Source: Microbispora sp. NBC_01189
GTDB taxonomy: Bacteria; Actinomycetota; Actinomycetes; Streptosporangiales; Streptosporangiaceae
NCBI RefSeq assembly: GCF_036010665.1
Contig: NZ_CP108581.1
Coordinates: 5,823,501 to 5,887,500 of the forward strand
Direction: 5' to 3'
Length of the DNA: 64,000 nt
The translations under genes and the position numbers were made by a program. The notes beneath the pieces are model-generated. The model saw only the letters and a program-made list of their open reading frames with translations. It was not told where the DNA came from and did not search any database. This document shows, in pieces, positions 3,831 through 34,477 of this stretch. How positions within the stretch are numbered: the stretch's first letter is position 1; every line of letters begins with the position of its first letter.

Positions 3831-4809
3831 CGAGCGCGATCTCCCTCTTGTCGCCGAAGATGCCCTGGGGCCGGAAGATGAGCAGGAGCATCAGGCCGAG
3901 GCCGACCAGCATGAACCGGACGGCGCCGATGTTGTTCACGGTGAAAAGCGAGGGGAGCATTCCGGCCGAGACGGCCTCGCTGAGCGTGTTCCCGACGAAG
4001 ACCAGCAGCACCCAGAAGATCGCGGCGCCGACGACGGGGCTGAAGACGCGGGCCGCGCCGCCGAGGATCACGATCGTGTACGCGTAGAAGGTGAACTCGG
4101 TGCTGAACAGGTCGGGCTGCACCGACGCCTGGCCGAGCGCGAACAGGAAGCCGCCGAGGCAGCCGACCAGGCCGCCGAGCACCAGCGCCTGCATCTTGTA
4201 GGAGAAGACGTTCTTGCCGAGGCTGCGCACGGCGTCCTCGTCCTCGCGGATCGCCTTGAGCACGCGGCCCCACGGGCTCTTCATGAGCAGGTAGACCAGC
4301 CCGCAGCAGATCGCGATGAGCACCCAGCCGACGGTCAGGATCCAGGTCACCCGCTCGTTGAAGCTGATCGGGCCGATGCCGTACGTGCCGGGGGAGTAGG
4401 GGTTCATCGCGAAGAAGTCGCCGGAGAAGTTCTGCCGGCCGTCCGAGCCGCCGAAGACGCTGCTGAACTCCACCGACCTGAAGACGAGCCGGACGATCTC
4501 GGCCGCCGCGATGGTGACGATCGCGAGGTAGTCGGCCCGCAGCCGCAGGGTCGGGATGCCGAGCAGGAAGGCCAGCACGACGGTGGCGGCCAGGCCGATC
4601 GCGATGCCCAGCCAGAACGGCAGGTGGAAGGTGGCCACCGTGACGGCCATGCCGTACGCGGCGACGCCGAGGAAGGCCGCCTGGCCGAAGTTGAGCAGCC
4701 CGGCGTAGCCGAACTGGATGTTGACGCCGATCGCGGCGAGCGCGTAGACGACGGTCTCCAGGCCGATCGAGGCCTTGACCGTGGTGATGAGGATTGCGTT
4801 CCAGTCCAC
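3820..4809 (-). CDS. livM: Branched-chain amino acid ABC transporter permease LivM
   Basis: A 329-residue polytopic membrane protein with 8-10 hydrophobic segments. It shows the LivM signature near the N-terminus (GYAGLLNFGQAAFLGVAAYG) and the EAA-type cytoplasmic loop SPWGRVLKAIREDEDAVRSLG near residues 190-210 that docks onto the ATPases. It pairs with LivH to form the translocation channel. It starts 13 nt after the livH stop and its 3' end overlaps livG. Confidence 0.93.
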   Translation of the reverse strand: MDWNAILITTVKASIGLETVVYALAAIGVNIQFGYAGLLNFGQAAFLGVAAYGMAVTVATFHLPFWLGIAIGLAATVVLAFLLGIPTLRLRADYLAIVTIAAAEIVRLVFRSVEFSSVFGGSDGRQNFSGDFFAMNPYSPGTYGIGPISFNERVTWILTVGWVLIAICCGLVYLLMKSPWGRVLKAIREDEDAVRSLGKNVFSYKMQALVLGGLVGCLGGFLFALGQASVQPDLFSTEFTFYAYTIVILGGAARVFSPVVGAAIFWVLLVFVGNTLSEAVSAGMLPSLFTVNNIGAVRFMLVGLGLMLLLIFRPQGIFGDKREIALDAR

Positions 4810-4822
4810 GTGTGGTCTCCGA

Positions 4823-6106: not shown

Positions 6107-6561
6107 TGGTGCTCCTCTGATTCAGGTCGTGGCGGGGTCGTGCCCCAACCGCGGACGCGCAACATCGGACAGGTTCTGTCTTGTTGTGGCCGGAGCATAA
6201 GCCTGGGACGCCCGGTTCAGGGTTGTTCGTCACCAATCGGTGACCATGGTGTGTCACTGACGTGAGAAAAGCTTTCGCAGGTCAGCGGGCTGTCATGAGT
6301 CATTCGGGGCGACGGTGCTGAGAACCGGCGGCGCGGAGCGACGATGAGCCCGTGGGGTGACCTTTGGGACCGTACACAGCTTCCCCGGCTCCGCACGTTG
6401 TCTACTCGGTTCCCCACGGGCTCTGGAGCCACAACGCTAGCGACCGGAGCGACCCGCGTGCAAAGAGAGTCGCAAGCCGTTCCGGTTTGGCCCTCGATGC
6501 GTCCCGAGAGCCGGTTGCACCTCTTGTCCGCATGCCGGCGTCCCGGGCGTGCGCGGCCCGC
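6107..6561. other. 455-bp gap between the liv operon and the thioesterase gene
   Basis: No convincing gene is present. The left part carries the probable liv promoter and two related palindromes (6229-6244 and 6254-6265). The right part (about 6300-6560) shows no recognisable element; short open frames there lack ribosome sites and protein-like composition. Confidence 0.5.
6194..6265 (-). promoter_or_regulatory. Candidate liv operon promoter with palindromic operator
   Basis: Reading the minus strand, a TATGCT -10-like box (6194-6199) lies about 90 nt before the livH TTG. Upstream of it is GTCACCAATCGGTGAC (6229-6244), a perfect 6-bp inverted repeat with a 4-bp spacer. A second, related inverted repeat TCAC-TGAC-GTGA lies at 6254-6265. 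The -35 is weak (CTGAAC-like). The two TCAC/GTGA repeats suggest binding of a dimeric regulator; which one is unknown. Confidence 0.35.
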
Positions 6562-6972
6562 TCATTCGGGCCTGATGAGACAGGTGAGGCGGGACGTGCA
6601 GACCATCCGGCCCTCGCCGTCGGTGATCTCGATGGCGTACGTCGCGAGCGTGCGCCCGCCGTGCACCCGGGTGGCGACGGCGGTGACGTGCCCCGAGGTG
6701 GCGGCGCGGTGGTGGGTGGCGTTGATCTCGATGCCGACGACCCTGCGCCCCGGCCCGGCGTGCAGGGCGGCGCCGGTCGAGCCGAGTGTCTCGGCCAGCA
6801 CGCATGAGGCGCCGCCGTGCAGCAGGCCGTACGGCTGGGTGTTGCCCTCCACGGGCATGCGGCCGACCACCCGCTCCGCGCTCGCCTCGAGGAACTCGAT
6901 GCCCATGCGCCGGTGCAGGCCCGGCGAGGCGTTCATCTCCGCCACGAACTCGTCGGGATTCGTCAAGGTCAA
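6562..6972 (-). CDS. Hotdog-fold thioesterase (PaaI-like)
   Basis: The 136-residue protein matches the PaaI/4HBT hotdog family: central helix with YGLLHGGASCVLAETLGS (residues about 47-64), followed by the strands VVGIEINATHHRAATSGHVTAVA and HGGRTLATYAIEITDGEGRMVCTSRLTCLI. It probably hydrolyses acyl-CoA (phenylacetyl- or related aryl/alkyl-CoA). Starting TTG is preceded by GGAGG at a good distance. It is divergent from polA with only 61 bp between the starts. The exact substrate cannot be told. Confidence 0.85.
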   Translation of the reverse strand: MTLTNPDEFVAEMNASPGLHRRMGIEFLEASAERVVGRMPVEGNTQPYGLLHGGASCVLAETLGSTGAALHAGPGRRVVGIEINATHHRAATSGHVTAVATRVHGGRTLATYAIEITDGEGRMVCTSRLTCLIRPE

Positions 6973-7021
6973 GGGGACGCCTCCGGTGGGAAGACCACGG
7001 GTTTCTGTCGTAGAGGGAGAC

Positions 7022-7027
7022 TAGGCT
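7022..7027 (+). promoter_or_regulatory. -10 box of polA, probably giving a leaderless mRNA
   Basis: TAGGCT ends 6 nt before the GTG start codon of polA. At that spacing transcription would begin at or next to the start codon, and there is no ribosome binding site in the short interval. Confidence 0.45.
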
Positions 7028-7033
7028 GCGGGT

Positions 7034-9715
7034 GTGCCGAAGAGTGAAGCGACCCCCACCCGTCCGTGTCTGCTGCTCCTGGACGGGCATTCCCTCGCCT
7101 ATCGCGCGTTCTACGCGCTGAAGGACGCCAATCTCATGACCACGGACGGTCAGCGCACCGAGGCCGTCTACGGTTTCACCTCGATGCTGGCCAACATCCT
7201 GCGTGACGAGCGGCCGAGTCACCTCGCGGTTTGCTTCGACCGCAGCGAGCCCACCTTCCGGCACGAGGCGTACGAGGCGTACAAGGCCAACCGGGCGGAG
7301 ACCCCGGAGGACTTCCGCGGCCAGATGCAGCTCATCTTCGAACTGCTCGACGCGCTGCGGATCCCGCATCTGTCGCTGGCGGGCTTCGAGGCGGACGACG
7401 TGATCGCGACGCTGGCGACCCGGGCCTCCGCCGAGGACATGAGCGTGCTCGTCGTCACCGGCGACCGCGACGCGCTCCAGCTCGTGAACGACAAGGTCAC
7501 GGTGCTGATGACCCGGCGCGGCATCAGCGACATGACCCGCTTCACCCCCGAGGCCGTGGTGGACAAGTACGGCCTGACCCCCGCGCAGTACCCGGACTTC
7601 GCGGCCCTGCGCGGCGACCCGAGCGACAACCTGCCGAACATCCCGAGCGTGGGGGAGAAGACCGCCACCAAGTGGATCGCGGAGTTCGGCTCGCTCGACG
7701 AGCTGGTCCGGCGGGCCGACGAGGTGAAGGGCAAGGCGGGCGACAAGCTCCGCGAGCACCTCGGCCAGGTGATCCACAACCGGATGCTGACCGAGCTGAA
7801 GCGCGACGCCCCGGTCGACGCCGAGGTGTCCGCGCTGACCATGGGCGTGTGGGACCGCGAGGAGGTCAACAAGCTCCTCGACTCGCTGCAGATCCGGGGT
7901 GAGCTGCGCGAGCGGCTGTTCAAGACCCTCGGCACCACCGAGCCCGAGGCCGGCGAGGGCTTCGAGCTGGAGGTGACCGTGCCGGAGCCGGGCCGGGTGG
8001 CGGCCTGGCTCGCCGCCCTCCCGGCCGGCCGCGCCGGGCTGGCCTTCCAGGCCGCGTACGGCAGCGGCACCGGGCGGCTCGACGGCATCGCGATCGCCGC
8101 CCCCGGCGGCGCCGCCTACCTCGACCCCACGCGCCTCACCGAGGAGGACGAGGCGGCGCTGGGCGCCTGGCTGGCGGACGAGAGCCGGCCGAAGGCCGTG
8201 CACGACGCCAAGGGCGCGCTGCTGGCGTTGTGGGCCCAGGGCCACGACCTGCGCGGCCTGACCTGCGACACCGCGCTCGCCGCCTACCTGGCCATGCCGG
8301 GGCAGCGGTCGTTCCCGCTCGACGACCTGGTGCTGCGTTACATCCACCGGGAGCTGCGGGCGGAGTCCGCCCCCGGTGGGCAGACGTCGCTGTTCGAGGA
8401 CGCCGACGAGGGCGTGGCCAGAGATCTGGCCCTGCGCGCCCAGGCGGTGCGCGACCTCGCCGACGCGCTGGAGGGTCATCTGTCCAAGCGTGGCGGCACC
8501 CGCCTGGTGACCGACGTCGAGCTGCCGCTGGTGCGCGTGCTCGCCGAGATGGAGCGGGCCGGCATCGCCGCCGACCGGGAGTACTTCGCGGGGCTGGAGG
8601 CCGAGTTCGGCGCGGCGGTCAAGCAGGCGACCGAGGCCGCCCACCAGGCCGTGGGGGAGCAGTTCAACCTCGGCTCGCCCAAGCAGTTGCAGGAGATCCT
8701 GTTCGGCAAGCTCGGCCTGCCGAAGACGAAGAAGATCAAGACCGGCTACACGACCGACGCCGACGCGCTCGCGTGGCTGGCCCAGCAGACCGACAACGAG
8801 CTTCCGGTGATCCTGCTGCGCCACCGCGACCAGGCCAAGCTGCGCACCACGGTCGAGGGCCTGATCAAGGAGATCTCCGACGACGGGCGGATCCACACCA
8901 CGTTCAACCAGATCGTGGCGGCCACCGGGCGGCTGTCGAGCGAGAAGCCGAACCTGCAGAACATCCCGATCCGCACCGTCGAGGGCCGCCGCATCCGCAG
9001 GGGCTTCGTGGTGGGGGAGGGCTACGAGACGCTGCTGACCGCCGACTACAGCCAGATCGAGCTGCGGATCATGGCCCACATGTCGCGGGACGAGTCGCTG
9101 ATCGCGGCGTTCGAGTCCGGGCACGACTTCCACAAGGCGACCGCGTCGCGGGTCTTCGACCTGCCGCCCGAGCAGGTGGACGCCGACCTGAGGGCCCGGA
9201 TCAAGGCGATGAACTACGGCCTCGCCTACGGGCTGTCCGACTTCGGGCTCTCGGGGCAGCTCAACATCCCGGTGGCGGAGGCGAAGGCGCTCAAGGAGGA
9301 GTACTTCGAGGAGTTCGGCGGCGTCCGCGACTACCTGGAGGCGATCGTCGCGCAGGCCCGCAAGGACGGCTACACCGAGACCATCCTCGGCCGCCGCCGC
9401 TACCTGCCCGATCTCACCAGCGACAACCGGCAGCGCCGGGAGATGGCCGATCGGATGGCCCTCAACGCGCCGATCCAGGGCTCGGCCGCCGACATCATCA
9501 AGGTCGCCATGCTCAACGTGCAGCGGGCGATCGCGGGCATGCGCTCCCGCATGCTGCTCCAGGTCCACGACGAGCTGGTGTTCGAGGTCGCGCCGGGCGA
9601 GCTGGAGGAGCTCACCGAGATCGTGCGGCAGCGGATGTGCCGGGCCTACGACCTGAGCGTGCCGCTGGAGGTCGGCGTCGGCGTCGGCGCCACCTGGGAG
9701 GACGCCGGCCACTGA
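7034..9715 (+). CDS. polA: DNA polymerase I
   Basis: An 893-residue family A polymerase for Okazaki fragment processing and repair synthesis. The N-terminal ~300 residues are the 5'-3' nuclease (LLLDGHSLAYRAFYAL, FEADDVIATLA, VTGDRDALQLV, GDPSDNLPNIPSVGEKTA). The middle region (about 310-500) occupies the place of the proofreading 3'-5' exonuclease but lacks its DxE and other carboxylates, as is usual in actinobacteria. The polymerase core has motif A with Asp671 (DYSQIELR), motif B with Tyr728 (KAMNYGLAYG) and motif C with Asp846 (QVHDELVFEV). GTG is used as start, preceded closely by a -10 box. It is convergent with the following minus-strand gene. Confidence 0.97.
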   Translation: MPKSEATPTRPCLLLLDGHSLAYRAFYALKDANLMTTDGQRTEAVYGFTSMLANILRDERPSHLAVCFDRSEPTFRHEAYEAYKANRAETPEDFRGQMQLIFELLDALRIPHLSLAGFEADDVIATLATRASAEDMSVLVVTGDRDALQLVNDKVTVLMTRRGISDMTRFTPEAVVDKYGLTPAQYPDFAALRGDPSDNLPNIPSVGEKTATKWIAEFGSLDELVRRADEVKGKAGDKLREHLGQVIHNRMLTELKRDAPVDAEVSALTMGVWDREEVNKLLDSLQIRGELRERLFKTLGTTEPEAGEGFELEVTVPEPGRVAAWLAALPAGRAGLAFQAAYGSGTGRLDGIAIAAPGGAAYLDPTRLTEEDEAALGAWLADESRPKAVHDAKGALLALWAQGHDLRGLTCDTALAAYLAMPGQRSFPLDDLVLRYIHRELRAESAPGGQTSLFEDADEGVARDLALRAQAVRDLADALEGHLSKRGGTRLVTDVELPLVRVLAEMERAGIAADREYFAGLEAEFGAAVKQATEAAHQAVGEQFNLGSPKQLQEILFGKLGLPKTKKIKTGYTTDADALAWLAQQTDNELPVILLRHRDQAKLRTTVEGLIKEISDDGRIHTTFNQIVAATGRLSSEKPNLQNIPIRTVEGRRIRRGFVVGEGYETLLTADYSQIELRIMAHMSRDESLIAAFESGHDFHKATASRVFDLPPEQVDADLRARIKAMNYGLAYGLSDFGLSGQLNIPVAEAKALKEEYFEEFGGVRDYLEAIVAQARKDGYTETILGRRRYLPDLTSDNRQRREMADRMALNAPIQGSAADIIKVAMLNVQRAIAGMRSRMLLQVHDELVFEVAPGELEELTEIVRQRMCRAYDLSVPLEVGVGVGATWEDAGH

Positions 9716-13950: not shown

Positions 13951-14556
13951 GTGCTGAAGGTCGGGCTCACGGGCGGCATAGGTTCGGGCAAGAGCGAGGT
14001 GTCGCGCCGGCTCGCCGCCCGCGGCGCCGTCGTCGTCGACGCGGACAAGATCGCCAGAGAGGTCGTGGAACCCGGCACCCCCGGGCTCGCGCAGATCGTC
14101 GCGGCGTTCGGCGAGGGCGTGCTCCGCCCCGACGGAGCCCTCGACCGGGAACGGCTCGGCTCGATCGTCTTCGCCGACACCGAGAAGTTGCGGGTCCTCA
14201 ACGGGATCGTCCACCCCAAGGTGGGCGAGCGCAGTGAGCAACTGCAGCGGGAGGCCCCGGACGACGCGGTCGTCGTCTACGACGTGCCACTGCTGGCCGA
14301 GAACAACCTGGCCCCCCTGTACGACGTGGTGATCGTCGTGGACACGCCGGACGACGTCCGGCTGGAGCGGCTGCTGCGGTCGCGCGGCATGCCGGAGGCG
14401 GACGCCCGCGCCCGGATCGCGGCCCAGGCCTCCCGCGAGGACCGCCTCAGGATCGCCGACATCGTGATCGCCAACGAGGGCTCCCTGGACCAGCTGGAGG
14501 CCCAGGTCGACAAGGTCTGGCAGGACCTGAGCACCCGCGCCTCCTCCCAGCGCTGA
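13951..14556 (+). CDS. coaE: Dephospho-CoA kinase
   Basis: The last enzyme of coenzyme A synthesis: ATP-dependent phosphorylation of the ribose 3'-hydroxyl of dephospho-CoA. The 201-residue protein has the P-loop [17 protein letters not shown] at the N-terminus, [13 protein letters not shown] (CoA-binding), HPKV, and [10 protein letters not shown]. Unlike mycobacterial CoaE it lacks the long C-terminal UPF0157 extension. The position downstream of rpsA and near uvrB is the common actinobacterial arrangement. Confidence 0.95.
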
Positions 14557-16178: not shown

Positions 16179-19100
16179 TCAGAAGGGCTCGTCCAGGGCC
16201 AGCCGCCGGACCTCCGGCAGGTATTCGTCCAGCTCACCCGGCTCGAACCGGCACATGCCGAGCACGAACCAGAACTGGCCCGTCACGTCGCCCTCCAGCT
16301 TGTACAGCCCGCTGGGGGAGAAGGCGGCCCAGCCCTCCGGCAGGCCGAGCAGGGTCGCGCGGCGGGTGCGCCCCGGGACGTCCCACAGGATCACCACGCC
16401 GTCGTCCCCGCCGCTGGCGAGCAGGTCGCCCGAGGGATGGAACGCGACGGACCAGATCCGGCGGCCGTGGCCCGCGAGGGTGCCGACGCGGGCGCCGGTC
16501 GACGGGTCCCACAGGTGGACGGCGAGGTCGTCGCCGGCCGTGGCGAGCAGGTCGCCGGACGGGCTGAAGGCGGCCGTCCACAGCCGGCCCCCGCCGTCGA
16601 GCACGTGCGCGCACTCGCCGGAGGCGATGTCCCACAGGCGGGCGGTGCCGTCGTTGCTCGCGCTGGCCAGCAGGCCGCCCGACGGCGAGAAGGCCACCGC
16701 GTACACCCGGTCGCGGTGACCGTCCAGCGTCGCCGTGCACCGGCCCGTCCGCAGGTCCCACAGCCGCACCTGGCGGTCGTCGCAGCCGGTGGCGGCGAAC
16801 CGCCCGCCGGGGTCGAAGGCGATCGACCTGACCCGTCCCCGGTGGCCGGAGAGGTTCGCGACCTGCCGCCCGCTGGGGCGGTACCACAGCCGCACGCTGT
16901 CGTCGTCGTTGGCGGTGGCCAGCAGTTCCCCGTCGGGGCTGAACGCCTCGGCCCACACGTGATCGGTCTCCACGTTGAGCTCGCGCTCGTACACCCCCGC
17001 CACCGGGTTCCACAGGTAGACCCCGCCGTCGTTGCTCGCGGTCGCGAGCAGCGGCCCGGCCGGGCTGAAGACGGCCGACACCAGGCGGTCGGCCGTCCCG
17101 GTGAGCGAGCGCAGCCGCCGTCCCGTCGCCGGGTCCCACAGGCGTACGTAACCGTCGTTGCCGCAGGCGGCGAGCATGCCGCCGTCGGCGGAGAAGCGGA
17201 CCGAGGTGATGCGGCGGCCGTGCCCGCGCAGCGTTTGCGCGCACTGTCCGGTGTCCGGGTCCCACAGGCGGGCGGTGCCGTCGTTGCTGCTCGTCGCGAG
17301 CTGCCGGCCGTCCGGGCGGAAGGCGAACGGCCACACCGATCCCCGGTGCCCGGTCAGCTCGGCGCGCGTCCGGGCGGTCACGGGGTCCCAGAGCCGCAGG
17401 ACGCCGTCGCTGTCGCCGGTGGCCAGCAGCTCCCCGGTGGGGTCGAACAGCACCTGGTAGACCGCGCCGCGGTGCCCCGGCAGGCTGCCGGCCGCCGCGC
17501 CCGTGACCGGGTCCCACAGCCGTACGGCTCCCTCGGTGTCGCCGGAGGCGAGCAGCCGGCCCTCCGGGTGGAAGGCGAGGGAGTAGATCCGCCCGGGGTG
17601 CCCGGTCAGCTCGTGCAGCGCGGCGCTGGTGCGGGGGTCCCAGATGCGCAGCACCCCCTGCCCGTCGCCGGCGGCCAGGAGGGTGCCGTCGGGGCTGAGC
17701 ACCAGCCGGTAGACCGGTCCGCTGTGGCCGCGCAGATGATGGCGCACCTGCCCGGTGGCGACGTCCCACACGCGGATCACCCCCGCGCGGTCGCCGGTCA
17801 CCAGCAGCCCCGGCAGGAACACGGCGGTGTAGATGGGGGCGCTGTGGCCCGGTAACTCCCGTACGAGCTCCCCGGACGCCCAGACCCGCATGACCCCGTC
17901 GGCGCCGCCGGCCGCGATCAGGTCGCCGGAGGTCACCACCGGCCAGACCCCCTCGGGATGGCCGCGCAGGACGTGGGACGGCGCTCCGGTGTGCGGGTCC
18001 CACACCCGCACGGTCCCGTCGCTCGCGCCGGTCACCAGACCGGCCTCGCCGTAGACGACCTTGTAGACGCGGCCGCGGTGGCCGTGCAGCGTGCGCAGCG
18101 CCGATCCGGTGACGGCGTCGCAGACCAGTACGCCGCCGTCCTCCCCGCCGAGCGCGAGCACGCCGCCGCCGGGGTGGTAGGCGACCGGCTCGGGCAGGCG
18201 GCTGCTCTCGAAGTGATAGCCGTACGGCACGCCCACGACGGCGGGGGCCGGCTCGGCGCCGACCGGGTCGCCCGCTCTCCCGGGGCCGCCGGGCCCGGTC
18301 GGTACGGCGGGTGCGACGGCCGCGCCGCGCAGTTCCGGCGCCGCGAAGGGGACACCCGTGCAGCCGACGATCGCGGCCCGGTCCCAGCGGCCGCCCTCGA
18401 CGGCGACGTCCCGCAGGTCGGCGCGGGCGAGCCGGGCCCGGGTGAGGTCGGCGCCGCGCAGGTCGGCGCCCACCAGCACGGCCTCGTCCAGGCGGGCGCC
18501 GGCCAGCCGGGCGTTCCTGAGCACGGCGTGGGAGAGGTCGGCCCCGACAAGCCGGGTGTCGGTCAGGTCGGCGCCGGTGAGATCGACGCCCTGCAGTTCG
18601 CGGTACGACAGGTCCTCGCCGCTGAGCCGCGCACCGCGCAGGTCGGTGCGCGCCGAGGTGCGCAGCCGGGTCGTCACCTTGATGGCGTTGGCCCGCGCGA
18701 CGTCGCCGGAGGCGGGGGAGGCGAGCGTCCTGGCCGCCCACGCCTGCAGCCGCGACGCCTCGGCGAGGTCGCACAGGAAATCGACGGTCAGCGTGGACAG
18801 CGGCCGCAGGCCCAGCCGGTCGGCGGGTCCGCCGGCGGGCCCGCCGAGCGACTCGGCCAGATGCCGGGCGACCAGCCACTCGGCGACCGAGGTGTGGATG
18901 AACCCGAACAACCCCTCGTCGGTGCGCACGAGCAGACTGCCGGCTCCGACCGCGTGCACGGCCTGCTCGGGCGTCAGCCGCGCGGCTCCCGCCGCCCCGC
19001 CCGGTCCGTACGGCGCGGGGGCCCGCGGGTCGGCGGCGAGGCCGGTGAGCGTGTCTGCGGCCTCGGCCAGCTCGGCCGGCCGCAGGTAGGTCTCGCCGGA

Positions 19101-21989
19101 CGCCCAAAGCCGCAGCGCGAGGGTGGTCGTGGCCCGCCGCAGCTCCTCGCGGGTGAGCCCGCCGGGTGCTCCGGCCACCCCTCCGACCCGCTCCTCCTCG
19201 AAGGCCAGCCAGGTGTCGAGGATCTCCTGGTAGAGGCCGGCGGCGCTGATCGTCTCCCCGGCCCGCGCGACGGCCCGCAGCCGCTCCTCCGGCAGGTCGG
19301 CGATGAAGCTCAGCATGCGGGGGTTGTGGGCCAGGCCGAGCAGGTCGGCGATGCCGGTGAGCAAAGCCATCCGGTCGTCGGCCGCCTCGCGCGAGACGTA
19401 CCGGTTGACCAGGTAGGCGCGGATCTGCTCCTCGGTGAACTCCTCGATGCCGAGCACCCGGCGGTTGGGCAGCAGGCCGACCTTCTCGCCGAGGGCGGTC
19501 ATCACCTGGCTGCGCGACTTGAAGTGCTGGGTCCGCCCGGCCACGACGATCTTGGCCTTGTCCTCCGCCGCGCGCAGCAGCGTGTCCAGGTGGTCGGCCG
19601 CCCGCTCGTACGTCACGCGGGTGACCAGCTCGTCGAAGCCGTCGAAGAGCAGCACGATGCGGCCCTGGCGCAGCATGTAGTGGAACGCCTTGAGGTCGAT
19701 CAGCTCCTCGCCGTGGTTGGCGAGGTGCGCCGCGACCAGCCCGGCGACCGAGTGCGCCTTGTCGAGGGCGCGCAGCTCGATCAGGATCGGGGTGAGGTGC
19801 GGCAGCTCGGCGGGGATGCGCCTGGCCACCTCGCGCAGCGAGAACGTCTTGCCCCGGCCGAAGTCGCCGAGCACGAGCACGAACCGCCCGTGGTCGGCCG
19901 CGAGCAGCCGCGTCAGCTCGCCGCCGAGGTCGTCGCGCACCTCGCCGCCGTTGCGGTCGAGCTCGCGGAACCGCTGCGGCACGTACAACTCGGGCGGGTA
20001 GCGCCGGTCGCCGCGCAGCCGCGCCGTCTGCCCGGCGACGTACGCCGACAGATCGAGCAGGCCCTGGAACTCGGTGAAGCTGCGCAGGCGCAGCCCGCGC
20101 CGCAGGGCGTCGTCGCGTAACGCCCGGGGCGGCGGCGGGCCCTGGTAGACCAGCTCCGCCGCGTGCTCCAGCCCCGCCGCGTGGACGTGGCCGAGGAACG
20201 CCTCGACGTGCTCCTCGCCCGGCTCCCCGGCGTGCGCGCCGACGAGGATCTGCCGGACGAAGCCGTCCTCGGGGTGGGTGACGAGCAGGCGCGGCGGGTC
20301 ACCGGCCACCCGTTTGATCTTGGCGCGCTCGAACCGGGTCTCGCAGACCTCGGCGATGCGGTCGAGCAGCAGGTCGGCCGGGCCGGCGGGTTCCTCGGGG
20401 GCCTCCTCCGGCGGCTCCGCGACCGGCGGCGGGGGGCTCTGCGGGCGCCACCCGCGCCAGTGGCAGGCCAGGACCTCCGGCTCGCGCAGCTCGGGCCGGT
20501 CGCGGGTCCACCGGCGCAGCCCCTCGGGCGTGAACTGGAGGATCTGGTGGCGTCCCGGAGCGAGCGCCGGCACGCACGGCAGGCCGTCCAGCTCCCCGAT
20601 CTCGGCCGGCCCGCCGCGCCGCGCGTCCCGCCCGTGGACGAGCAGGTCGAGCCGGGACCCCAGCAGGCGCTGCAGGGTGTCGGCGTCGCGCAGGCCTGGG
20701 CGCGGGGGATGAGCGACGACGCCGAGGCGCAGCCATCCGTCGTACGGCCGCAGCCGCTCGGCGAACCACGCCGCCTGGGCCTCGCCGACGAAACCGTGGG
20801 CGTCCTCCTCGCGGTGGCTCATCGCGATGGTCGAGTTGATCCCGGCGACGACCGTGCGCAACTCGGGCAGCTCGAACAGCGTCCACGGCTGGGCGCTGTC
20901 GAAGGCGGGCCCGTCGAGGCCCTGGTAGAGCTCGCCGAAGAGCGTGGAGAAGTGCCGCCACTTCGGCCAGTAGGGCGGCCGCGGGCGCACGTCGTCGGCC
21001 TCGCAGGTGGCGAAGTAGGCCCGGCACGCCGCCTTGGTGACGTCGCGCGGGCCGGGGACGACGGCGAGGCGCCCGGGTTCGAGGCCGAGCAGCACGCGCA
21101 GCCCGGTGAGGAACGCCAGCGCCTGCTCGCACTCGCGGATGCTGCCCGACTCGGTGAGATCACCGGTCACCACGAGCAGGTCGGGCCGGGGCACCCCGGC
21201 GTCCGCGAGGCGGGTCAGGTCGGCCCACACACTGGCCTGCAGTTCGCCCGCGTCGAGCGGCTCGTCCGCCTCCGCCAGCCCGCGCCCGAAGCGCGGCCCG
21301 GCGACGTGCAGCACGGTGACCGACGACGCGCCGCCCGCGCGGTCGGCCGTCGGGAACGCCGGCTCGGCGGCCGGGGCCCGGCGCGCCCGGGGGATCCGTA
21401 CGGCGGGCACCGGGTCGGCGGGCGGCCGGAGAGCACCCGGGCCGTGGGAGCCGTCCGGGCCGTCCAAGCCGCGCGGGCCGTGCGACCCGTGCGACCCGTG
21501 CGACCCGCGCGGGCCGTCGGCGGGCCCGGCCGGGAACCGGGGTGGCTCGTCCGGTTTGGCCCGCCCGGCCAGGGCCTGCCTGATCCGGGTGAGCAGCAGC
21601 CGCCGCGCCTCGCCGGGCTCGGTCACGCCGAGGAGGTCGACCCAGGTGATCGTGGACAGCAGCCCGTCGAGCGGGCAGTCCTCCAGCCGGACCGTCACGA
21701 GCTTGTTGGACGGGTTGTCCGGATCGGCGCGCAGCGCCGCCTGCCACTCCAGCCTGCCGTACCGCGAGCCCAGGTAGTTGCGGGTGAGCACGGCGACGAC
21801 CAGGTCGGCCTCACTCACGCCGCGGTCCATGAAGTCGATGAAGTTGGTGCCGGGCACGAAGTCCCACGCCTGGAGCATCGTGCGGTAGCCGGCGGATTCG
21901 AGCTGCCAGGCGATCCACGTCGCCCATCGCTCGTCCGCGGGGGAGTAGCTGACGAAGATCTCCGTTCTGGCGTCCCCGCGCCCGCTCAT
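16179..21989 (-). CDS. Giant TIR / degenerate metallophosphoesterase / NACHT / pentapeptide / WD40 STAND protein
   Basis: About 1936 residues. Order: TIR domain (residues 8-140; FVSYSPADERWATWIAWQLE, candidate NADase Glu81 in RLEWQAAL); Gly/Ser/His-Pro linker (~150-215); calcineurin-like phosphoesterase fold (~225-455) with most metal ligands lost; a linker domain of unknown fold (~520-690, before LYVPQRF); NACHT NTPase with Walker A GDFGRGKTFS (Lys714) and Walker B VLLFDGFDEL (Asp783); winged-helix/helical arm; pentapeptide repeats (~1115-1200; ADLTDTRLVGADLSHAVLRN); 15 WD40-like repeats (~1265-1890); conserved C-terminus (GLYKLEGDVTGQFWFVLGMC). ATG 21989 has GAGGGGG upstream. Such architectures are known as STAND sensors, where the beta-propellers sense and TIR is the effector; a role in phage defence or cell death is inference. 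It is a single gene without partners. Confidence 0.85.
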   Translation of the reverse strand: MSGRGDARTEIFVSYSPADERWATWIAWQLESAGYRTMLQAWDFVPGTNFIDFMDRGVSEADLVVAVLTRNYLGSRYGRLEWQAALRADPDNPSNKLVTVRLEDCPLDGLLSTITWVDLLGVTEPGEARRLLLTRIRQALAGRAKPDEPPRFPAGPADGPRGSHGSHGSHGPRGLDGPDGSHGPGALRPPADPVPAVRIPRARRAPAAEPAFPTADRAGGASSVTVLHVAGPRFGRGLAEADEPLDAGELQASVWADLTRLADAGVPRPDLLVVTGDLTESGSIRECEQALAFLTGLRVLLGLEPGRLAVVPGPRDVTKAACRAYFATCEADDVRPRPPYWPKWRHFSTLFGELYQGLDGPAFDSAQPWTLFELPELRTVVAGINSTIAMSHREEDAHGFVGEAQAAWFAERLRPYDGWLRLGVVAHPPRPGLRDADTLQRLLGSRLDLLVHGRDARRGGPAEIGELDGLPCVPALAPGRHQILQFTPEGLRRWTRDRPELREPEVLACHWRGWRPQSPPPPVAEPPEEAPEEPAGPADLLLDRIAEVCETRFERAKIKRVAGDPPRLLVTHPEDGFVRQILVGAHAGEPGEEHVEAFLGHVHAAGLEHAAELVYQGPPPPRALRDDALRRGLRLRSFTEFQGLLDLSAYVAGQTARLRGDRRYPPELYVPQRFRELDRNGGEVRDDLGGELTRLLAADHGRFVLVLGDFGRGKTFSLREVARRIPAELPHLTPILIELRALDKAHSVAGLVAAHLANHGEELIDLKAFHYMLRQGRIVLLFDGFDELVTRVTYERAADHLDTLLRAAEDKAKIVVAGRTQHFKSRSQVMTALGEKVGLLPNRRVLGIEEFTEEQIRAYLVNRYVSREAADDRMALLTGIADLLGLAHNPRMLSFIADLPEERLRAVARAGETISAAGLYQEILDTWLAFEEERVGGVAGAPGGLTREELRRATTTLALRLWASGETYLRPAELAEAADTLTGLAADPRAPAPYGPGGAAGAARLTPEQAVHAVGAGSLLVRTDEGLFGFIHTSVAEWLVARHLAESLGGPAGGPADRLGLRPLSTLTVDFLCDLAEASRLQAWAARTLASPASGDVARANAIKVTTRLRTSARTDLRGARLSGEDLSYRELQGVDLTGADLTDTRLVGADLSHAVLRNARLAGARLDEAVLVGADLRGADLTRARLARADLRDVAVEGGRWDRAAIVGCTGVPFAAPELRGAAVAPAVPTGPGGPGRAGDPVGAEPAPAVVGVPYGYHFESSRLPEPVAYHPGGGVLALGGEDGGVLVCDAVTGSALRTLHGHRGRVYKVVYGEAGLVTGASDGTVRVWDPHTGAPSHVLRGHPEGVWPVVTSGDLIAAGGADGVMRVWASGELVRELPGHSAPIYTAVFLPGLLVTGDRAGVIRVWDVATGQVRHHLRGHSGPVYRLVLSPDGTLLAAGDGQGVLRIWDPRTSAALHELTGHPGRIYSLAFHPEGRLLASGDTEGAVRLWDPVTGAAAGSLPGHRGAVYQVLFDPTGELLATGDSDGVLRLWDPVTARTRAELTGHRGSVWPFAFRPDGRQLATSSNDGTARLWDPDTGQCAQTLRGHGRRITSVRFSADGGMLAACGNDGYVRLWDPATGRRLRSLTGTADRLVSAVFSPAGPLLATASNDGGVYLWNPVAGVYERELNVETDHVWAEAFSPDGELLATANDDDSVRLWYRPSGRQVANLSGHRGRVRSIAFDPGGRFAATGCDDRQVRLWDLRTGRCTATLDGHRDRVYAVAFSPSGGLLASASNDGTARLWDIASGECAHVLDGGGRLWTAAFSPSGDLLATAGDDLAVHLWDPSTGARVGTLAGHGRRIWSVAFHPSGDLLASGGDDGVVILWDVPGRTRRATLLGLPEGWAAFSPSGLYKLEGDVTGQFWFVLGMCRFEPGELDEYLPEVRRLALDEPF
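21482..21508. repeat. Three 9-bp tandem repeats in the TIR-phosphoesterase linker
   Basis: Three copies of GCGACCCGT/C encode the GSHGSHGSHG linker of the STAND protein. Confidence 0.6.
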
Positions 21990-22167
21990 GCCGCCCCCTC
22001 GCCCGGCCGCACGGGTATGCGGACCACCCGCTGCCTGGTGATTCGCCCGCTCATGCCCTGATCGCCGCAATACCCCACCGGCCGCCCCCATCGACATGCG
22101 CCATGGTGCCCAGTATTCCCGCTGTCACCGACGGTTTGGAGGGCTTCGATCATCTCGGCTTGCGGGA

Positions 22168-22179: not shown

Positions 22180-23370
22180 GTGGCGACCGGGCTGCGGCGG
22201 CTGAGTGTTCTCGACTGGATCAGGTTCGGGCTGCTCGCGGCGGGCCTGGTGTTCGTGGCCACCGGCCTGCTGCCGGCCGAGACCGCCAGGGAGAGCGTCG
22301 AGCGCATCGCGCCCCTGCTGCTGTTCCTCGGCGCGGTCATCGTGCTCGCCGAGCTGACCAAGGAGGCGCGGGTCTTCGACGTCATCGCGACCCGCATCGC
22401 GATCGTCGGCCGGGGCAGCTACGCGATCCTCTTCCTGCTGTGCGCGGCGTTCGCCTCCCTGGTCACGATATTCCTGAACCTGGACACGACGGCCGTCCTG
22501 CTGACGCCGGTCATGCTGGCCCTGGCGCCCCGCGCGAAGATCGCCCCGCTGCCGATGGCGATGACCACGGTGTGGCTGGCCAACACCGCGAGCCTGCTGC
22601 TGCCGGTCTCCAACCTCACCAACCTGCTCGCCATGAACCGCGTCGCGCTGACCACCCAGGAGTTCGCCGCGCGGATGTGGGCGCCCCAGCTCGTCTCGAT
22701 CGCGGTCACCATGGCCTTCCTCTGGGCGTTCTACTGGCGGCGCGGCGAGCGGGGCGAGGACCGGTACGAGCCGCCGCCGCCGGTCCCGGTGGCCGACCGG
22801 GTGCTGTTCGGCGTCTCCGGGGTGGCCTGCCTGCTGTTCATCGCCGCGATCCTGGCGGGCGTCGAGATCGGCGTCGCGGCCCTCGTCGCGGCGGTCGCGG
22901 TGGTCGCCGCCTTCGCCTGGCGCGACCGGGCGAAGCTCGTGTGGGGCCTGCTCCCCTGGCGGCTGCTGGTCTTCGTCACCGGCCTGTTCCTCGTGGTCCC
23001 GACGCTCAGCCGCCTCGGCCTGGCGGACGTGATGCGCGGGCTCGTCGGCGTGGGCGGCGACGGAGACGGCGCCTACCGCGCGGCCGCCGCCGGGGCCGCG
23101 CTGTCCAACGTGGTCAACAACCTGCCGGCGTACGTCGCGGGCGAGCAGGTCATCCCCGCGGCCAACCACACGCAGTTGCTGTCGCTCCTCGCGGGCACCA
23201 ACCTCGGCCCGGTGATCACGCCGTGGGGGTCGCTCGCGACCCTGCTGTGGTTCGAGTGGTGCCGCCGGGGGGACGTGCGGGTGCCGCTGGCCAAGTTCGT
23301 CGCCACCGGCGCGGGCCTCGCCGTGGCCGGCCTCGCCGCGACGGCGACCGTCCTGGTCCTCACCGGCTGA
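22180..23370 (+). CDS. ArsB/SLC13-type permease
   Basis: A 396-residue integral membrane protein with 10-11 hydrophobic helices in two inverted halves. The first half has TIFLNLDTTAVLLTPVMLA and the second SNVVNNLPAYVAGEQ and GTNLGPVITPWGSLATLLW, the paired re-entrant signatures of the ion-transporter superfamily containing ArsB, citrate and dicarboxylate carriers and NhaD. ArsB-like arsenite efflux is the nearest family, but there is no arsR or arsC nearby, so the substrate is open. Start is GTG after a -10 box. Confidence 0.8.
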   Translation: MATGLRRLSVLDWIRFGLLAAGLVFVATGLLPAETARESVERIAPLLLFLGAVIVLAELTKEARVFDVIATRIAIVGRGSYAILFLLCAAFASLVTIFLNLDTTAVLLTPVMLALAPRAKIAPLPMAMTTVWLANTASLLLPVSNLTNLLAMNRVALTTQEFAARMWAPQLVSIAVTMAFLWAFYWRRGERGEDRYEPPPPVPVADRVLFGVSGVACLLFIAAILAGVEIGVAALVAAVAVVAAFAWRDRAKLVWGLLPWRLLVFVTGLFLVVPTLSRLGLADVMRGLVGVGGDGDGAYRAAAAGAALSNVVNNLPAYVAGEQVIPAANHTQLLSLLAGTNLGPVITPWGSLATLLWFEWCRRGDVRVPLAKFVATGAGLAVAGLAATATVLVLTG

Positions 23371-28173: not shown

Positions 28174-29052
28174 CTACATCGGCGGGAGTGCGGGAGCGAG
28201 GCGGCGGGCCTCGGCGACCAGGTCGAGGAGGTCGCCGACCAGGGTGGGCGGCGCGGCGACGAAGCTGCGGTCCTCGGCCGGTCCCTCGGCCGACGCCTCG
28301 AAGGGCACGCCGTCGAACCCCCGGATCTCCACCCCGGCCTCCCGCGCGAGCAGCGCCCCGGCGGGCAGGTCGAGACCCTCGGCGTGGTAGCCGATCATGC
28401 CGTCGATGTCGCCGCGGGCGAGCATCGCCCAGCACAGCAACGGCGCCCACAACTGGAGCACCCGCCGGGCGCGGACCTCCATCGTCATCCTCAGCGACCG
28501 CGCCGCCGGGTCGCGCCGGGAGACCCCGTGGCCCTGCGTCCAGCCCAGCACCGGGCCGTGCGGGAGGTCCCGCCGCGGCGGCCCGGTCAACGGCCCGGCG
28601 GGCCCGAGCGCCCCGGCGTCGCGTACGGCCGACCAGGTGTGGCCGGACACCGGTTCGTGGACGACGCCCACCACCGGGCGGGAGCCCGCGCACAGCGCCA
28701 GGCCCACGACGTACGCCGGGAGGCCGATCGCCACGTTGTTGGTGCCGTCGAGGGGATCGACCAGCCAGGTCCATTCCCAGCCCGCCGCTCCCTCCCCGCG
28801 CGGGCCGTCAGGGGATCCGGCAGCGGAGCCGGCGTGGACGCCCGACTCCTCGGCCACGATCCGGTGGGCCGGGAACTCCGCCCGGAGGCGTTCGACGATC
28901 AGCTTCTCGGCGGCCAGGTCGAGGTCGGTCACGACGTCGCCCGATGTGCCCTTGGGGCGGGCGGCGGCCGCGCCCGGCACGCTCTCCCGGAGCGTCGACC
29001 CGGCGGCCAGGGCGGCCTCCACGGCTATCCGCCTTGCGTGTTCGAGGTCCAC
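28174..29052 (-). CDS. Inositol monophosphatase family protein
   Basis: A 292-residue Mg-dependent phosphatase fold: GDVVTDLDLAAEKLIVERL, catalytic metal sites IVAEESG and WLVDPLDGTNN (DPLDGT loop), and later GYHAEGLDLPAGALLAREAGV. The last motif differs a little from the usual WDxAAG (here LDLPAG), so the catalytic Asp is kept but the Trp is not. It may dephosphorylate inositol phosphate, histidinol phosphate or PAP. Start GTG 29052 has AGGAGA upstream and lies inside the preceding cupin-like gene (28-bp overlap), implying cotranscription. Confidence 0.88.
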   Translation of the reverse strand: MDLEHARRIAVEAALAAGSTLRESVPGAAAARPKGTSGDVVTDLDLAAEKLIVERLRAEFPAHRIVAEESGVHAGSAAGSPDGPRGEGAAGWEWTWLVDPLDGTNNVAIGLPAYVVGLALCAGSRPVVGVVHEPVSGHTWSAVRDAGALGPAGPLTGPPRRDLPHGPVLGWTQGHGVSRRDPAARSLRMTMEVRARRVLQLWAPLLCWAMLARGDIDGMIGYHAEGLDLPAGALLAREAGVEIRGFDGVPFEASAEGPAEDRSFVAAPPTLVGDLLDLVAEARRLAPALPPM

Positions 29053-29801
29053 AGGCTTCTCCTGGCCAGCTCGGCGGCACGTGCGGTGTCGGCGGCGTCG
29101 AGGCGTTCCCGCCTGACGTGGTGGAGGGGCGCGGCGAGCGGCCCGAGCGACAGGTCTTCCCGTTCCGGCCGGACACGGCCGAGGGCCACCGTGGCGGCCT
29201 CGCCGTCGCCGGGGATGACGCTGCTGTGGAAGGCGCCCGCGACGAGCGTGTAGGTGTCGCCCGCCGCGAAGAGATCGGCGCGCCCGGGGGCGTACCGGAC
29301 CGTCCTGCCGGTGGGCCGCAGGACGTCGCCCTCGGGGGCGCTGACCACCTCGAACACGCGGTGGGTGGGGGACTCGGCCGTGTCGGTCAGCGCGGCGTGC
29401 ACGTTGCACACCTGGCCGTACAGGACGTGGCTGATCAGGTCCCAGCTGTGGCAGTGGATCTGTGAGGTGGTGCTGCGCGCGGGCCGGGCGGCGGAGGTCC
29501 AGATGTGCACGCACACCCCGAGGCCGCCGTCGCGTTCCACGGGCAGGCAGAGGAACCCGAGCGGGTGCCGCACCCCCAGGATCGGGGTGCGGCCCGCCGC
29601 GATCTCGGTGAGCACGCCCAGCGCCCACTCGCGGGCGTTCCCGTCCGTCAGCACGCCGAGCACCTCCCGGTATCTCATGGGCGGTCCCCCCATGGCCGGC
29701 GTGTCGCTGGCCGGTGTCTCATCAATATCCTCCGTGGAAACCCCCGCCGCCAGGCGAACCGCCGTGTCGAACACCTGCGCGATGCTCAACTGAGCGTGCA
29801 T
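29025..29801 (-). CDS. Cupin-like protein of unknown function
   Basis: About 258 residues if started at ATG 29801. The central part has a cupin pattern with IHCHSWDLISHVLYGQV (His pair plus Gly), RADLFAAGDTYTLVAGAFHSSV (second His), similar to cysteine-dioxygenase-type cupins. So a metal-binding dioxygenase or sensor is possible. The 5' end is doubtful: ATG 29801 is only 10 bp from the tnpB start, in what should be transposon end DNA. Internal ATG codons near 29691 and 29679 (MGGPPMRYREV) are alternative starts. The gene overlaps the inositol-phosphatase gene downstream. Confidence 0.6.
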   Translation of the reverse strand: MHAQLSIAQVFDTAVRLAAGVSTEDIDETPASDTPAMGGPPMRYREVLGVLTDGNAREWALGVLTEIAAGRTPILGVRHPLGFLCLPVERDGGLGVCVHIWTSAARPARSTTSQIHCHSWDLISHVLYGQVCNVHAALTDTAESPTHRVFEVVSAPEGDVLRPTGRTVRYAPGRADLFAAGDTYTLVAGAFHSSVIPGDGEAATVALGRVRPEREDLSLGPLAAPLHHVRRERLDAADTARAAELARRSLWTSNTQGG

Positions 29802-29811
29802 GATGTGAGGC

Positions 29812-30942
29812 GTGGCGCAGATCGTGAAGCGGGCCTACAAGTACCGCTTCTATCCCACCCCCGAGCAGGCCGCCGAGCTTGCCCGGACGTTCGGGTGCGT
29901 GCGCCTGGTGTACAACAAGGCGCTGGAGGAACGCACCCGCGCCTACACCCGGGAAGGCCGCCGCGTCTCCTACCCGGAGTCCTCGGCCTTGCTGACGAAG
30001 TGGAAGCGGACCGAAGAGCTGGCGTTCCTCAACGGGGTGTCCAGTGTGCCGTTGCAGCAGGCGTTGCGGCACCTGCAGGCGGCGTTCGCCCACTTTTTCG
30101 CCAAGCGGGCCAAATACCCCACCTTCAAGTCGCGGAAGAAGTCGCGGGCGTCGGCCGAGTACACCCGCTCGGCGTTCCGCTGGCGGGACGGCCGGCTCAC
30201 GCTGGCGAAGATGGACGCCCCGCTGGACATCGTGTGGTCGCGGCCACTCCCGCAAGGAGCGGAGCCGTCCACGGTGACCGTGAGCAGGGACGCGGCCGGA
30301 CGGTGGTTCGTGTCCCTCCTGGTAGAAGAGACGATCCACCCCCTCACCCCCAGCGGGAACGTGGTCGGGGTGGACGCGGGGATCACCAGCCTGGTGGCCC
30401 TGTCCCGCCCGATCCCCGGCGTGACCGACCAGGACGGCAAGGTCGCCAACCCCCGGCATGAGCGCACCGACCGGCGCAGACTGGCCAAGGCCCAGCGCTC
30501 GCTCGCCCGGAAAGCCAAGGGCAGCGCGAACCGGGCCAAGGCCCGGCTCAAGGTCGCCCGCGCCCACGCCCGAATCAGCGACCGGCGCCGGGACTTCCTG
30601 CACAAGCTGTCGACTCGGCTCGTCCGTGAGACCCAAACGGTCGTGATCGAGGACCTGACCGTCCGCCACATGGTCAAGAACCACTCCCTCGCCCGCGCCA
30701 TCTCCGACGCCGGCTGGCGGCAACTGCGCTCGATGCTGGAATACAAGACGGCCTGGTACGGGCGGGAACTCGTCGTGCTCGACCGGTGGTTCCCCTCCTC
30801 CAAGCTGTGCTCGGCCTGCGGGGCACTGGCCGAGGCGATGCCGCTGAACGTCCGGACCTGGGAGTGCGCCTGCGGCGCGGTCCACGACCGGGATGTCAAC
30901 GCCGCCAAGAACATCCTCGCCGCCGGGCTGGCGGAGAGGTGA
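29812..30942 (+). CDS. tnpB: RNA-guided endonuclease TnpB
   Basis: A 376-residue TnpB with all parts of a functional nuclease: N-terminal KRAYKYRFYPTPEQ, the wedge/REC region with YNKALEERTRAY and FFAKRAKYPTFKSRKK, RuvC-I Asp188 (VGVDAGITSL), RuvC-II Glu280 (VVIEDLTVRHM), a zinc finger with CSACG and CACG, and RuvC-III (HDRDVNAAKNIL, Asp359/Asp361). TnpB cuts DNA matching the guide in its RNA, which favours retention of the element. Start GTG at the position conserved in these elements (GTGGCGCAG). No frameshift or truncation is seen. Confidence 0.93.
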   Translation: MAQIVKRAYKYRFYPTPEQAAELARTFGCVRLVYNKALEERTRAYTREGRRVSYPESSALLTKWKRTEELAFLNGVSSVPLQQALRHLQAAFAHFFAKRAKYPTFKSRKKSRASAEYTRSAFRWRDGRLTLAKMDAPLDIVWSRPLPQGAEPSTVTVSRDAAGRWFVSLLVEETIHPLTPSGNVVGVDAGITSLVALSRPIPGVTDQDGKVANPRHERTDRRRLAKAQRSLARKAKGSANRAKARLKVARAHARISDRRRDFLHKLSTRLVRETQTVVIEDLTVRHMVKNHSLARAISDAGWRQLRSMLEYKTAWYGRELVVLDRWFPSSKLCSACGALAEAMPLNVRTWECACGAVHDRDVNAAKNILAAGLAER

Positions 30943-31067
30943 AACGCCTGTGGAGCTGGTGTAAGACCTCAACGAGAGTCCTCTCAGACGAGGCGACCGG
31001 TGATGAAGCAGGAAACCCGACCGGCGACGGTCGAAATCCCGTCCCTTCAGGGAGGGGAGGATGTCAA
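30943..31067 (+). ncRNA. Right end and guide (omega/re) RNA scaffold of the TnpB element
   Basis: In this family the guide RNA covers the 3' part of tnpB and the right end, and takes its guide from the flanking DNA. The 125 bp after the stop contain repeated inverted segments (GACCGGCGACGGTC and TCCCTTCAGGGA) and the conserved terminal GAGGATGTCAA. The guide would start at about 31068. The RNA 5' end probably lies inside tnpB and is not mapped here. Confidence 0.55.
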
Positions 31068-32101
31068 GGCGCGTACGGGTCTTTGGCGCGCAGGGCCTTG
31101 CGGGTGACCTCGACCACGTCCCGGTCGGTGAACGACTTGGGCAGGGGAAGCTCGACGCCGTCGAACAGCCTGCGGACCTCCTCGACGGTCGGCTCGTCGC
31201 TCAGCTGCACCGACCGGTAGCGGTCGATCGGCAGGCGGCGGGCCTGCTCGAAGCTGGTGCGCAGCTCGGCGCCGCAACCGCCGTAGAAGAACGAGCCGCT
31301 GTAGGCGATGATCGCCCGGTTCGGGTCCTCGGAGGTCATGATGAGGGAGCGGTCCGACATGTCCCAGCGGAAGGTCGTCATGACCGGGGACAGGCCGACT
31401 GCGATGTCGAGCAGGCCGTACCGCTGGCGGTGCCAGAACGCGGCCAGGACGCTCGCGTACGACTCCTTCCTGGCGCGTTCGGTCGTCCACGTCTCACCGG
31501 TGCCGTCCGGGCGGTCGGACAGAGACCTGCGGTAGTGCGCGTAGCTCTCGCACACCGCCTCGTCGGTCGGATCGATGATCTCCATCCGGATCGTGAGGTG
31601 CCGCCGGTCGCGCCGCGCGGCGGTCACACACTCGGGGAGCGTGACGGCGCGCATGTAGGTGCCGGTGCCGCCCTTGAACGTCCAGTGGTCGGTGCCCCGC
31701 CGCGCGTCCGCGTGGGCCTGGGCGATCTCGTGCCGGCTGCCGAGGACGCGGATGACCGCCATGTCCTCCAGCGCCCTGCGGGTGCCCGCGACCAGCTCCT
31801 CCAGCTGGTCGAGGCGTCCCAGCCGCTCGGGCAGCCGCGCGAGGACGCCGGAGGTCGCGTGCATGGCCTCCTCCACCGGTTCCTGCCGGGCGCGGTCGCG
31901 CAGCAGCGCGGTCGCCACCAGGGCCAGGACGACCAGCGTGGTGCCGCTGACGAGCTGCGACTTGACCTTGTCGGGGATCACGTCGTCGGGCAGCACGCCG
32001 AGCACGCCCACCACCACGGCCAGCACCAGGGCGATGGCGCCGTCGACGTTCTTGCCCGCCCACGCGGCGGCCTGGCCGACGGCAGCTCGCAGTCCCGCCA
32101 T
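31064..32101 (-). CDS. Two-TM membrane protein of unknown function, next to the TnpB right end
   Basis: The 345-residue product has two membrane helices near the N-terminus (AIALVLAVVVGVLGVL and TTLVVLALVATALL), a charged helical or coiled segment (EEAMHATSGVL...LDQLEELVAGTRRALED), and a soluble C-terminal domain of about 230 residues with DHWTFKGGTGTYMRAVTLP, IRMEIIDPTDEAVCESYAHY and MTSEDPNRAIIAYSGSFFYGG. I do not recognise the family; the pattern is reminiscent of 2TM effector proteins and PLD-like folds but no catalytic pair is clear. Its TGA stop is formed by bases 31064-31066, within the conserved end of the transposon, so the native C-terminus may have been cut. Confidence 0.65.
   Translation of the reverse strand: MAGLRAAVGQAAAWAGKNVDGAIALVLAVVVGVLGVLPDDVIPDKVKSQLVSGTTLVVLALVATALLRDRARQEPVEEAMHATSGVLARLPERLGRLDQLEELVAGTRRALEDMAVIRVLGSRHEIAQAHADARRGTDHWTFKGGTGTYMRAVTLPECVTAARRDRRHLTIRMEIIDPTDEAVCESYAHYRRSLSDRPDGTGETWTTERARKESYASVLAAFWHRQRYGLLDIAVGLSPVMTTFRWDMSDRSLIMTSEDPNRAIIAYSGSFFYGGCGAELRTSFEQARRLPIDRYRSVQLSDEPTVEEVRRLFDGVELPLPKSFTDRDVVEVTRKALRAKDPYAP

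Positions 32102-32365: not shown

Positions 32366-34477
<2,112 letters not shown>

Follow-up and report, generated by a model that had tools for sequence, protein, structure and literature searches.

A TIR-NACHT-WD40 protein of Microbispora with a conserved phosphoesterase domain that appears to have lost its metal site

Results

Domain Architecture

The stretch of DNA analysed here, referred to as the window, comprises 64,000 nt of Microbispora sp. NBC_01189 (NZ_CP108581.1, positions 5,823,501-5,887,500; coordinates below are window positions) and carries on its minus strand a single open reading frame (ORF; 16179..21989) encoding a protein of 1936 residues, in which a TIR domain, an apparently dead phosphoesterase, an NA-iREase3 domain, a NACHT NTPase, pentapeptide repeats and WD40 propellers follow one another. 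Apart from NA-iREase3, these parts and their order had been proposed in a first-pass annotation and were confirmed, with Glu81, Lys714 and Asp783 at the positions it had given and with both the TIR (TIR_2, E 1.3e-34) and the NACHT part (E 1.5e-9) matched by profile, while the NA-iREase3 domain and the deadness of the phosphoesterase had been overlooked. Profile search thus places an effector domain at the N-terminus and repeats at the C-terminus, which is the layout of STAND/NACHT proteins and recalls that of immune sensors in animals and plants.

The Phosphoesterase Domain

Residues ~219-500 (20490..21335, minus strand) form a pseudo-phosphoesterase of Rv0805-like calcineurin fold, as judged from profile, alignment and a predicted model. 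Rv0805 and SMPDL3A are among the best fold matches of that model, which strengthens the assignment of a predicted calcineurin-like fold; the top match in both fold searches was an integrative model (9a6c_B) and was not used. A profile of five sequences from relatives with an intact site also matches Rv0805 (E 5.4e-13), while the Pfam Metallophos match to the window protein is below cut-off. The fold is therefore common to the window domain, Rv0805 and SMPDL3A, but the metal ligands are missing from the window domain. In the alignment those of motifs I, III and V are absent, with Gly231 in place of Asp, Arg233 of Gln/His, Pro314 of Asn, Arg315 of His and Ala426 of His, and both His of GHxH (His454 and His456) are gone; Asp277, Asp316 and His427 remain.

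A first alignment, in which 16 orthologues were set beside 3 distant relatives, showed the motifs SDTQF, GNHD and GHTH intact in the 3 relatives and destroyed in the 16 orthologues, and the same contrast was seen after adding the best 120 of 993 matches from a search that scored the 7998 best-sharing candidates. The orthologue set comprises 136 rows, 121 of them from the database or the window and 15 from loci, with 133 distinct cores among them. Gly at position 231 and Arg at position 233 are each found in 135 of 135 rows, the motif III Asn at 314 in 0 of 136, and His426, His454 and His456 are lost, while His315 is retained in 34 of 136 rows, Asp277 in 120 of 136, Asp316 and His427 in 136 of 136, and Asn385 and His392 in most or all. 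The first-pass annotation had described a phosphoesterase-like module between TIR and NACHT, of which the fold stands and the activity does not, with the site lost in all orthologue rows. That it is gone in every close relative examined suggests that one weapon replaced another.

The domain is nevertheless under purifying selection. In 7 of 11 orthologues from the genus its ratio of nonsynonymous to synonymous substitution rates (dN/dS) is 0.09-0.13, compared with 0.10-0.20 for the NACHT domain, and lies below that of the WD40 part; four comparisons with other genera in the family give 0.35-0.47 for the phosphoesterase. The combination of motif loss and purifying selection indicates that the phosphoesterase domain is retained for a non-catalytic purpose.

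TIR, NACHT and Repeat Domains

The TIR_2 domain (residues 11-129; 21603..21959, minus strand), whose fold is assigned by profile, also matches TLR, MyD88 and SEFIR chains (E 3.6e-4 to 5e-3) and the PADLOC models bSEFIR and Aga_TIR. Its Glu81 (codon 21747-21749), which we take to be the catalytic Glu of TIR NADases, is retained in 132 of 132 aligned orthologue rows, with gaps in the other 4 of the 136. The TIR of the window clade is 42-44% identical to those of L042, P0165, P0171, P0202 and P0219, in which the phosphoesterase is intact or nearly so, and shares little similarity with the TIRs of P0185 and P0242.

Behind the phosphoesterase lies NA-iREase3 (residues 539-647; 20049..20375, minus strand), a profile match to a NACHT-associated inactive restriction-endonuclease fold, and in this region restriction enzymes match weakly in Foldseek (MspJI, E 7.6e-3). 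It is followed by the NACHT NTPase (residues 702-866; 19392..19886, minus strand), whose Walker A (GDFGRGKT, Lys714) and Walker B (LLFDGFDEL, Asp783) are intact in 136 of 136 orthologue rows, by pentapeptide repeats (residues ~1106-1215; 18345..18674, minus strand) and by WD40 propellers (residues ~1300-1880; 16350..18092, minus strand). The latter give the 15 blades counted earlier by simple count and 14 stretches by Pfam. Their dN/dS is 0.21-0.24 in six genus pairs and 0.46-0.53 in four pairs with other genera of the family, and their internal repeat identity is 0.44, compared with 0.60 in trypsin-type relatives with an intact phosphoesterase; these two measures give no sign of a hypervariable sensor in the clade of the window protein.

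Relatives of the Phosphoesterase-NACHT Protein

A second search started from an intact relative (best 120 of 294 matches), and among the matches listed the N-terminus bears no added domain, a trypsin or a TIR, so that effector swapping is evident. In these wider relatives the phosphoesterase is either N-terminal or placed after the trypsin or TIR, and its metal motifs are mostly intact. When 259 rows were sorted by a strict motif rule, those in which no added domain was detected divided into 53 intact and 17 not intact, the trypsin rows into 42 and 9, and the TIR rows into 6 and 132. The non-intact class takes in truncated entries and single changes, and P0185 and P0242 turned out to carry TIR. 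Among 252 rows scorable for six ligands, at least two ligands were lost in 142 of the 191 with at least 60 residues in front of the domain, compared with 7 of the 61 without, and two of those seven (P0041 and P0108) are orthologues with late-starting entries. A tree of 103 representatives requires at least 7 decay changes and at least 11 changes of the added-domain state. By our reading of it, decay probably occurred in three TIR lineages (the window clade, P0185 and P0242) and in two trypsin lineages (P0231; P0168 and kin).

Three chosen loci of the 20 fetched (L069, L072 and L075) have a Trypco1 gene directly upstream; L069 is trypsin-type, as is L026, and L072 looks to be so as well. In L072 (Catellatospora, 4333-6277), a free-standing TIR gene and the Trypco1 gene stand directly before the phosphoesterase-NACHT relative.

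Neighbourhood and Inheritance

The usual flank on the C-terminal side is coaE (dephospho-CoA kinase; 13951..14556, plus strand), separated from the NACHT gene in the window by abhydrolase and TetR genes, and the other side of the wider neighbourhood is bounded by uvrB (32366..34477, plus strand). The identities of coaE, uvrB and rpsA were confirmed after recognition by eye, and a further gene is presumably polA. Among 15 orthologous loci, the divergent neighbour is a permease in all 15 and coaE lies on the opposite side in 13; of the other two, L038 lies on a contig that stops within the gene, and in L033 the stretch fetched beyond the TetR and abhydrolase genes did not show coaE. Synteny is kept from 95% down to ~60% identity, and pairwise identity of the NACHT core follows that of coaE (Spearman 0.92; 153 non-independent pairs from 18 loci). 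In a sample of 200 genomes of the order, an orthologue is present in 72, including 12 of the 15 genomes of the genus. The gene has been inherited vertically in a slot between housekeeping genes near coaE.

A mobile or island-type defence gene is not supported by this comparison. The phage collection gave no match, no relative was found among viral contigs, and seven records of the plasmid collection matched, six of them over 27-37% of the query at <30% identity. The single strong match, NZ_LT559118.1, is an 11.85-Mb Nonomuraea record listed as a plasmid, the size of which suggests a chromosome. The gene thus does not behave as a mobile one, with the exception of one relocated copy in genome G209.

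The Divergent Permease

The neighbour in question encodes a permease of the ArsB/CitMHS type (22180..23370, plus strand). Between the divergent genes lies a conserved block (approximately 22105..22150, no strand assigned) that is shared by 12 members of the genus immediately ahead of the point where the NACHT gene starts, in most with an ATG close behind, and is likely to be a promoter or operator, possibly a leaderless promoter. With the permease counted at E up to 1e-60, 93 of the 200 genomes carry it; 71 have both genes, 1 (G102) the NACHT gene only, 22 the permease only and 106 neither. Adjacent and divergent arrangement is found in 71 of 74 orthologous copies, the three exceptions being G102, G167 (where the contig ends inside the gene) and a paralogue with another N-terminus in G131; five further matches, four distant and one a remnant in G161, were tallied separately. 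Among genomes that lack the orthologue, TetR adjoins the permease in G014 and coaE lies near it in G036, G178, G199 and G023 (with one ORF between in G199), while G002 and G004 of the genus are without either gene. Two genes in the slot of G002 have what we take to be an HxlR-like and an NmrA-like look. Of 16 relatives without the NACHT gene, 3 carry the permease. The gene had been thought free-standing, which is at odds with so constant a neighbour; the link is strong as genetics, and a functional role is putative.

Three loci are of separate interest. In G209 (L046, 8374-15348), a second permease-NACHT pair, both members nearest lineage L040, lies away from the coaE slot in a block that also carries a g23-like gene. 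In G161 (L059, 9853-10806), the NACHT gene next to the permease is reduced to a remnant of 317 residues, which looks like ongoing loss. In the G131 paralogue (L061, 5877-12764; 2295 residues), an NNH7 helical domain and an initial NACHT stand in place of the TIR-phosphoesterase front and are followed by NA-iREase3 and by the NACHT-WD40 part that is orthologous.

Discussion

Comparison with Known Systems

Metallophosphatase-NACHT proteins were validated as anti-phage in 2026 with DS-8, described in the accessible text of the DefensePredictor report as a single protein that protects E. coli, is likened to SMPDL3A and needs both its NACHT and its metallophosphatase residues, with defence by DS-8 and DS-9A alike lost when the predicted catalytic metallophosphatase residues are mutated (PMC13092281). 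The window protein, like DS-8, has a metallophosphatase and a NACHT in one chain and an SMPDL3A-like fold, but it adds TIR, NA-iREase3, pentapeptides and WD40, and its metallophosphatase site is lost. The domain combination had been called the least familiar part of the protein, and is now less so. DS-9A differs in being a two-gene system with a HAD phosphatase, for which that text names no NACHT (PMC13092281). Its model NF053862 is the best NCBIfam match to the phosphoesterase, with E 6e-9, well below cut-off, for the window protein and 2e-30, also below cut-off, for an intact relative. The domains of three intact relatives match DS9_1 (2e-28 to 2e-30) and, over a short stretch, DS8 (1e-9 to 2e-10), again below the cut-offs, and the DS8 model has no match to residues 205-1096 of the window protein.

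According to the available text on bNACHT25, that protein likewise has an N-terminal effector and a central NACHT module, but its PD-(D/E)XK effector is required for defence, whereas the restriction-endonuclease-fold domain of the window protein belongs to a family named inactive (PMC12169576). In the available part of a survey of conflict systems of multicellular bacteria, Trypco1 accompanies trypsin, and trypsin domains in the effector position are nearly all inactive (PMC7159879). The swapped N-terminal trypsin and TIR, the Trypco1 genes beside trypsin and inactive modules in the effector position are likenesses to the systems seen here, though those systems are defined there by core parts (VMAP, iSTAND, EACC1 and others) that were not searched for here (PMC7159879). 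The proposal of a STAND/NACHT protein with a candidate TIR effector is upheld by relatives that swap their N-terminal domain, by the Trypco1 neighbours of three, by the PADLOC matches and by a phosphoesterase family that includes validated anti-phage systems, and the label of conflict system is supported by this kinship. The individual parts are known already; a dead phosphoesterase behind a conserved TIR was not found described among the matches listed from the open-access literature, as far as these sources extend.

A Change of Effector

The explanation that we consider rather probable is an NLR-like (STAND/NACHT) switch whose effector role has moved from the phosphoesterase to the TIR. In the ancestral state, as in DS-8, the calcineurin-like domain would have been the N-terminal effector; a TIR would have been placed in front of it, the metal site lost in the ancestor of the orthologue group, and the old enzyme kept on without catalysis, as a scaffold or as a regulator that binds a ligand. 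Sensing of the trigger would fall to the C-terminal propellers, perhaps together with the pentapeptide repeats, and ATP-driven assembly of the NACHT domains would cluster the TIRs, which as the sole effector likely to be catalytic would consume or convert nicotinamide adenine dinucleotide (NAD) until the cell stops. The TIR as weapon, NAD as its substrate and the sensing of invaders are suggested by what is known of the families. A lineage that fixed the loss of catalytic residues which DS-8 needs, and yet keeps the domain under selection behind a TIR, would be a natural experiment on effector change in immune receptors, bearing on which domain kills and on the role of the dead one.

Several observations weigh against this explanation. 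The 42 trypsin and 6 TIR rows with intact motifs mean that an added effector does not force decay, and two decays, in P0234 and, in milder form, in P0230/P0233 and kin, appear from our reading of the tree to have taken place without TIR or trypsin. A paired sign test was not significant (median p 1; 7 pairs on supported branches, averaging 0.9 in the same direction, 0.0 in the opposite and 6.0 with no difference), and we do not claim as a statistical law that an added effector causes decay, with which the data are consistent. The best tree separates the window clade from the Frankia-type TIR proteins, and joining them costs 6.75 log-likelihood units (approximately unbiased test, p-AU 0.125), which does not settle whether the TIR was gained before the decay. 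In 92 of 97 intact relatives the motif I His is replaced by Gln, such that their activity can only be inferred.

Continued catalysis by the phosphoesterase through altered ligands is very improbable. Most or all orthologue rows retain Asp277, Asp316, His427, Asn385 and His392, and some retain His315, but the motif I Asp (0 of 135), the motif III Asn and both GHxH His are gone, and the Metallophos match is below cut-off. A bolder form of the non-catalytic role is that the dead domain is a ligand sensor, which would bind a TIR product or cyclic nucleotide in its former pocket and thereby gate the TIR of its own chain, and which together with the permease would make up a checkpoint for immunity or lysis that this actinobacterial order inherits vertically, as one case of a general NLR-like rule whereby a new enzyme is stacked in front and the old one turned regulator. 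Gly231 and Arg233, fixed at the former metal position, are in keeping with this sensor, which we regard as speculative and on the whole unlikely. An ordinary single-gene anti-phage system spread by horizontal transfer is improbable; it would account for the kinship of the phosphoesterase with DS-9 and DS-8, the patchy occurrence in the order and the second copy in G209 outside the slot, but it is disfavoured by the conserved synteny, by the congruence with coaE, by the lack of a phage match and of any strong plasmid match other than the 11.85-Mb record, and by the permease and two other neighbours, the three genes tested, being without a PADLOC match.

The most serious competitor, although clearly less likely than a change of effector, is an NLR-like protein domesticated to regulate a host process such as development, sporulation, programmed lysis or control of a prophage or gene transfer agent, rather than phage defence. 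It draws on the agreement with coaE, the presence in 12 of 15 genus genomes and the low dN/dS and repeat identity of the WD40 part, and it has a precedent in the CARD-NLR-like LypABC of Caulobacter, which the accessible text describes as needed for gene transfer agent release, an instance of an NLR-like system at work in a host lysis programme (PMC13236601). The vertical inheritance and the near-constant neighbour likewise leave room for a fixed cellular checkpoint. However, the gene is dispensable, being missing from G014 of the genus, surviving in G161 as a remnant, and missing next to a retained permease in G036, G178, G199 and G023 (counts made without species-tree inference of gain and loss), and its identified neighbours are housekeeping, transport, metabolic or TetR genes, none known as developmental, although two conserved neighbours of no known family limit this argument. 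A little less probable again is a two-gene system in which the permease is the working partner, as guarded target, ion effector or co-regulated transporter. Its presence in 71 of the 72 genomes that have the NACHT orthologue, nearly always adjacent and divergent, the second pair in G209 with both members nearest L040, the joint absence from G002 and G004 and the conserved intergenic block all favour such a system, but the permease occurs without the orthologue in 22 of 200 genomes (G161 having the remnant, and G105 and G190 distant relatives elsewhere), so that the linkage may merely reflect an old neighbourhood, while G102 keeps the NACHT gene without the permease, the moved G209 block also has the g23-like gene, and the Fisher p for the linkage ignores phylogeny.

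Other Observations

Between the permease block and uvrB, the window carries an IS605 OrfB/TnpB-type gene (29812-30942; Cas12f1-like_TNB). Two window genes (29025-29801 and 31064-32101) are without a Pfam, NCBIfam or PADLOC match and recur in neighbourhoods of other genera. Beside the trypsin-type relative of L026 (2107-6258), a neighbour matches the PADLOC model PDC-M28B (E 3e-23), and in L076 (Actinoplanes, 6752-9583) a second NA-iREase3/NACHT gene is convergent with the phosphoesterase relative, an arrangement that L077 and L078 resemble by ORF layout only. Of ten additional NACHT matches (E up to 0.001) in the genome that contains the window (G000), four exceed the family cut-off.
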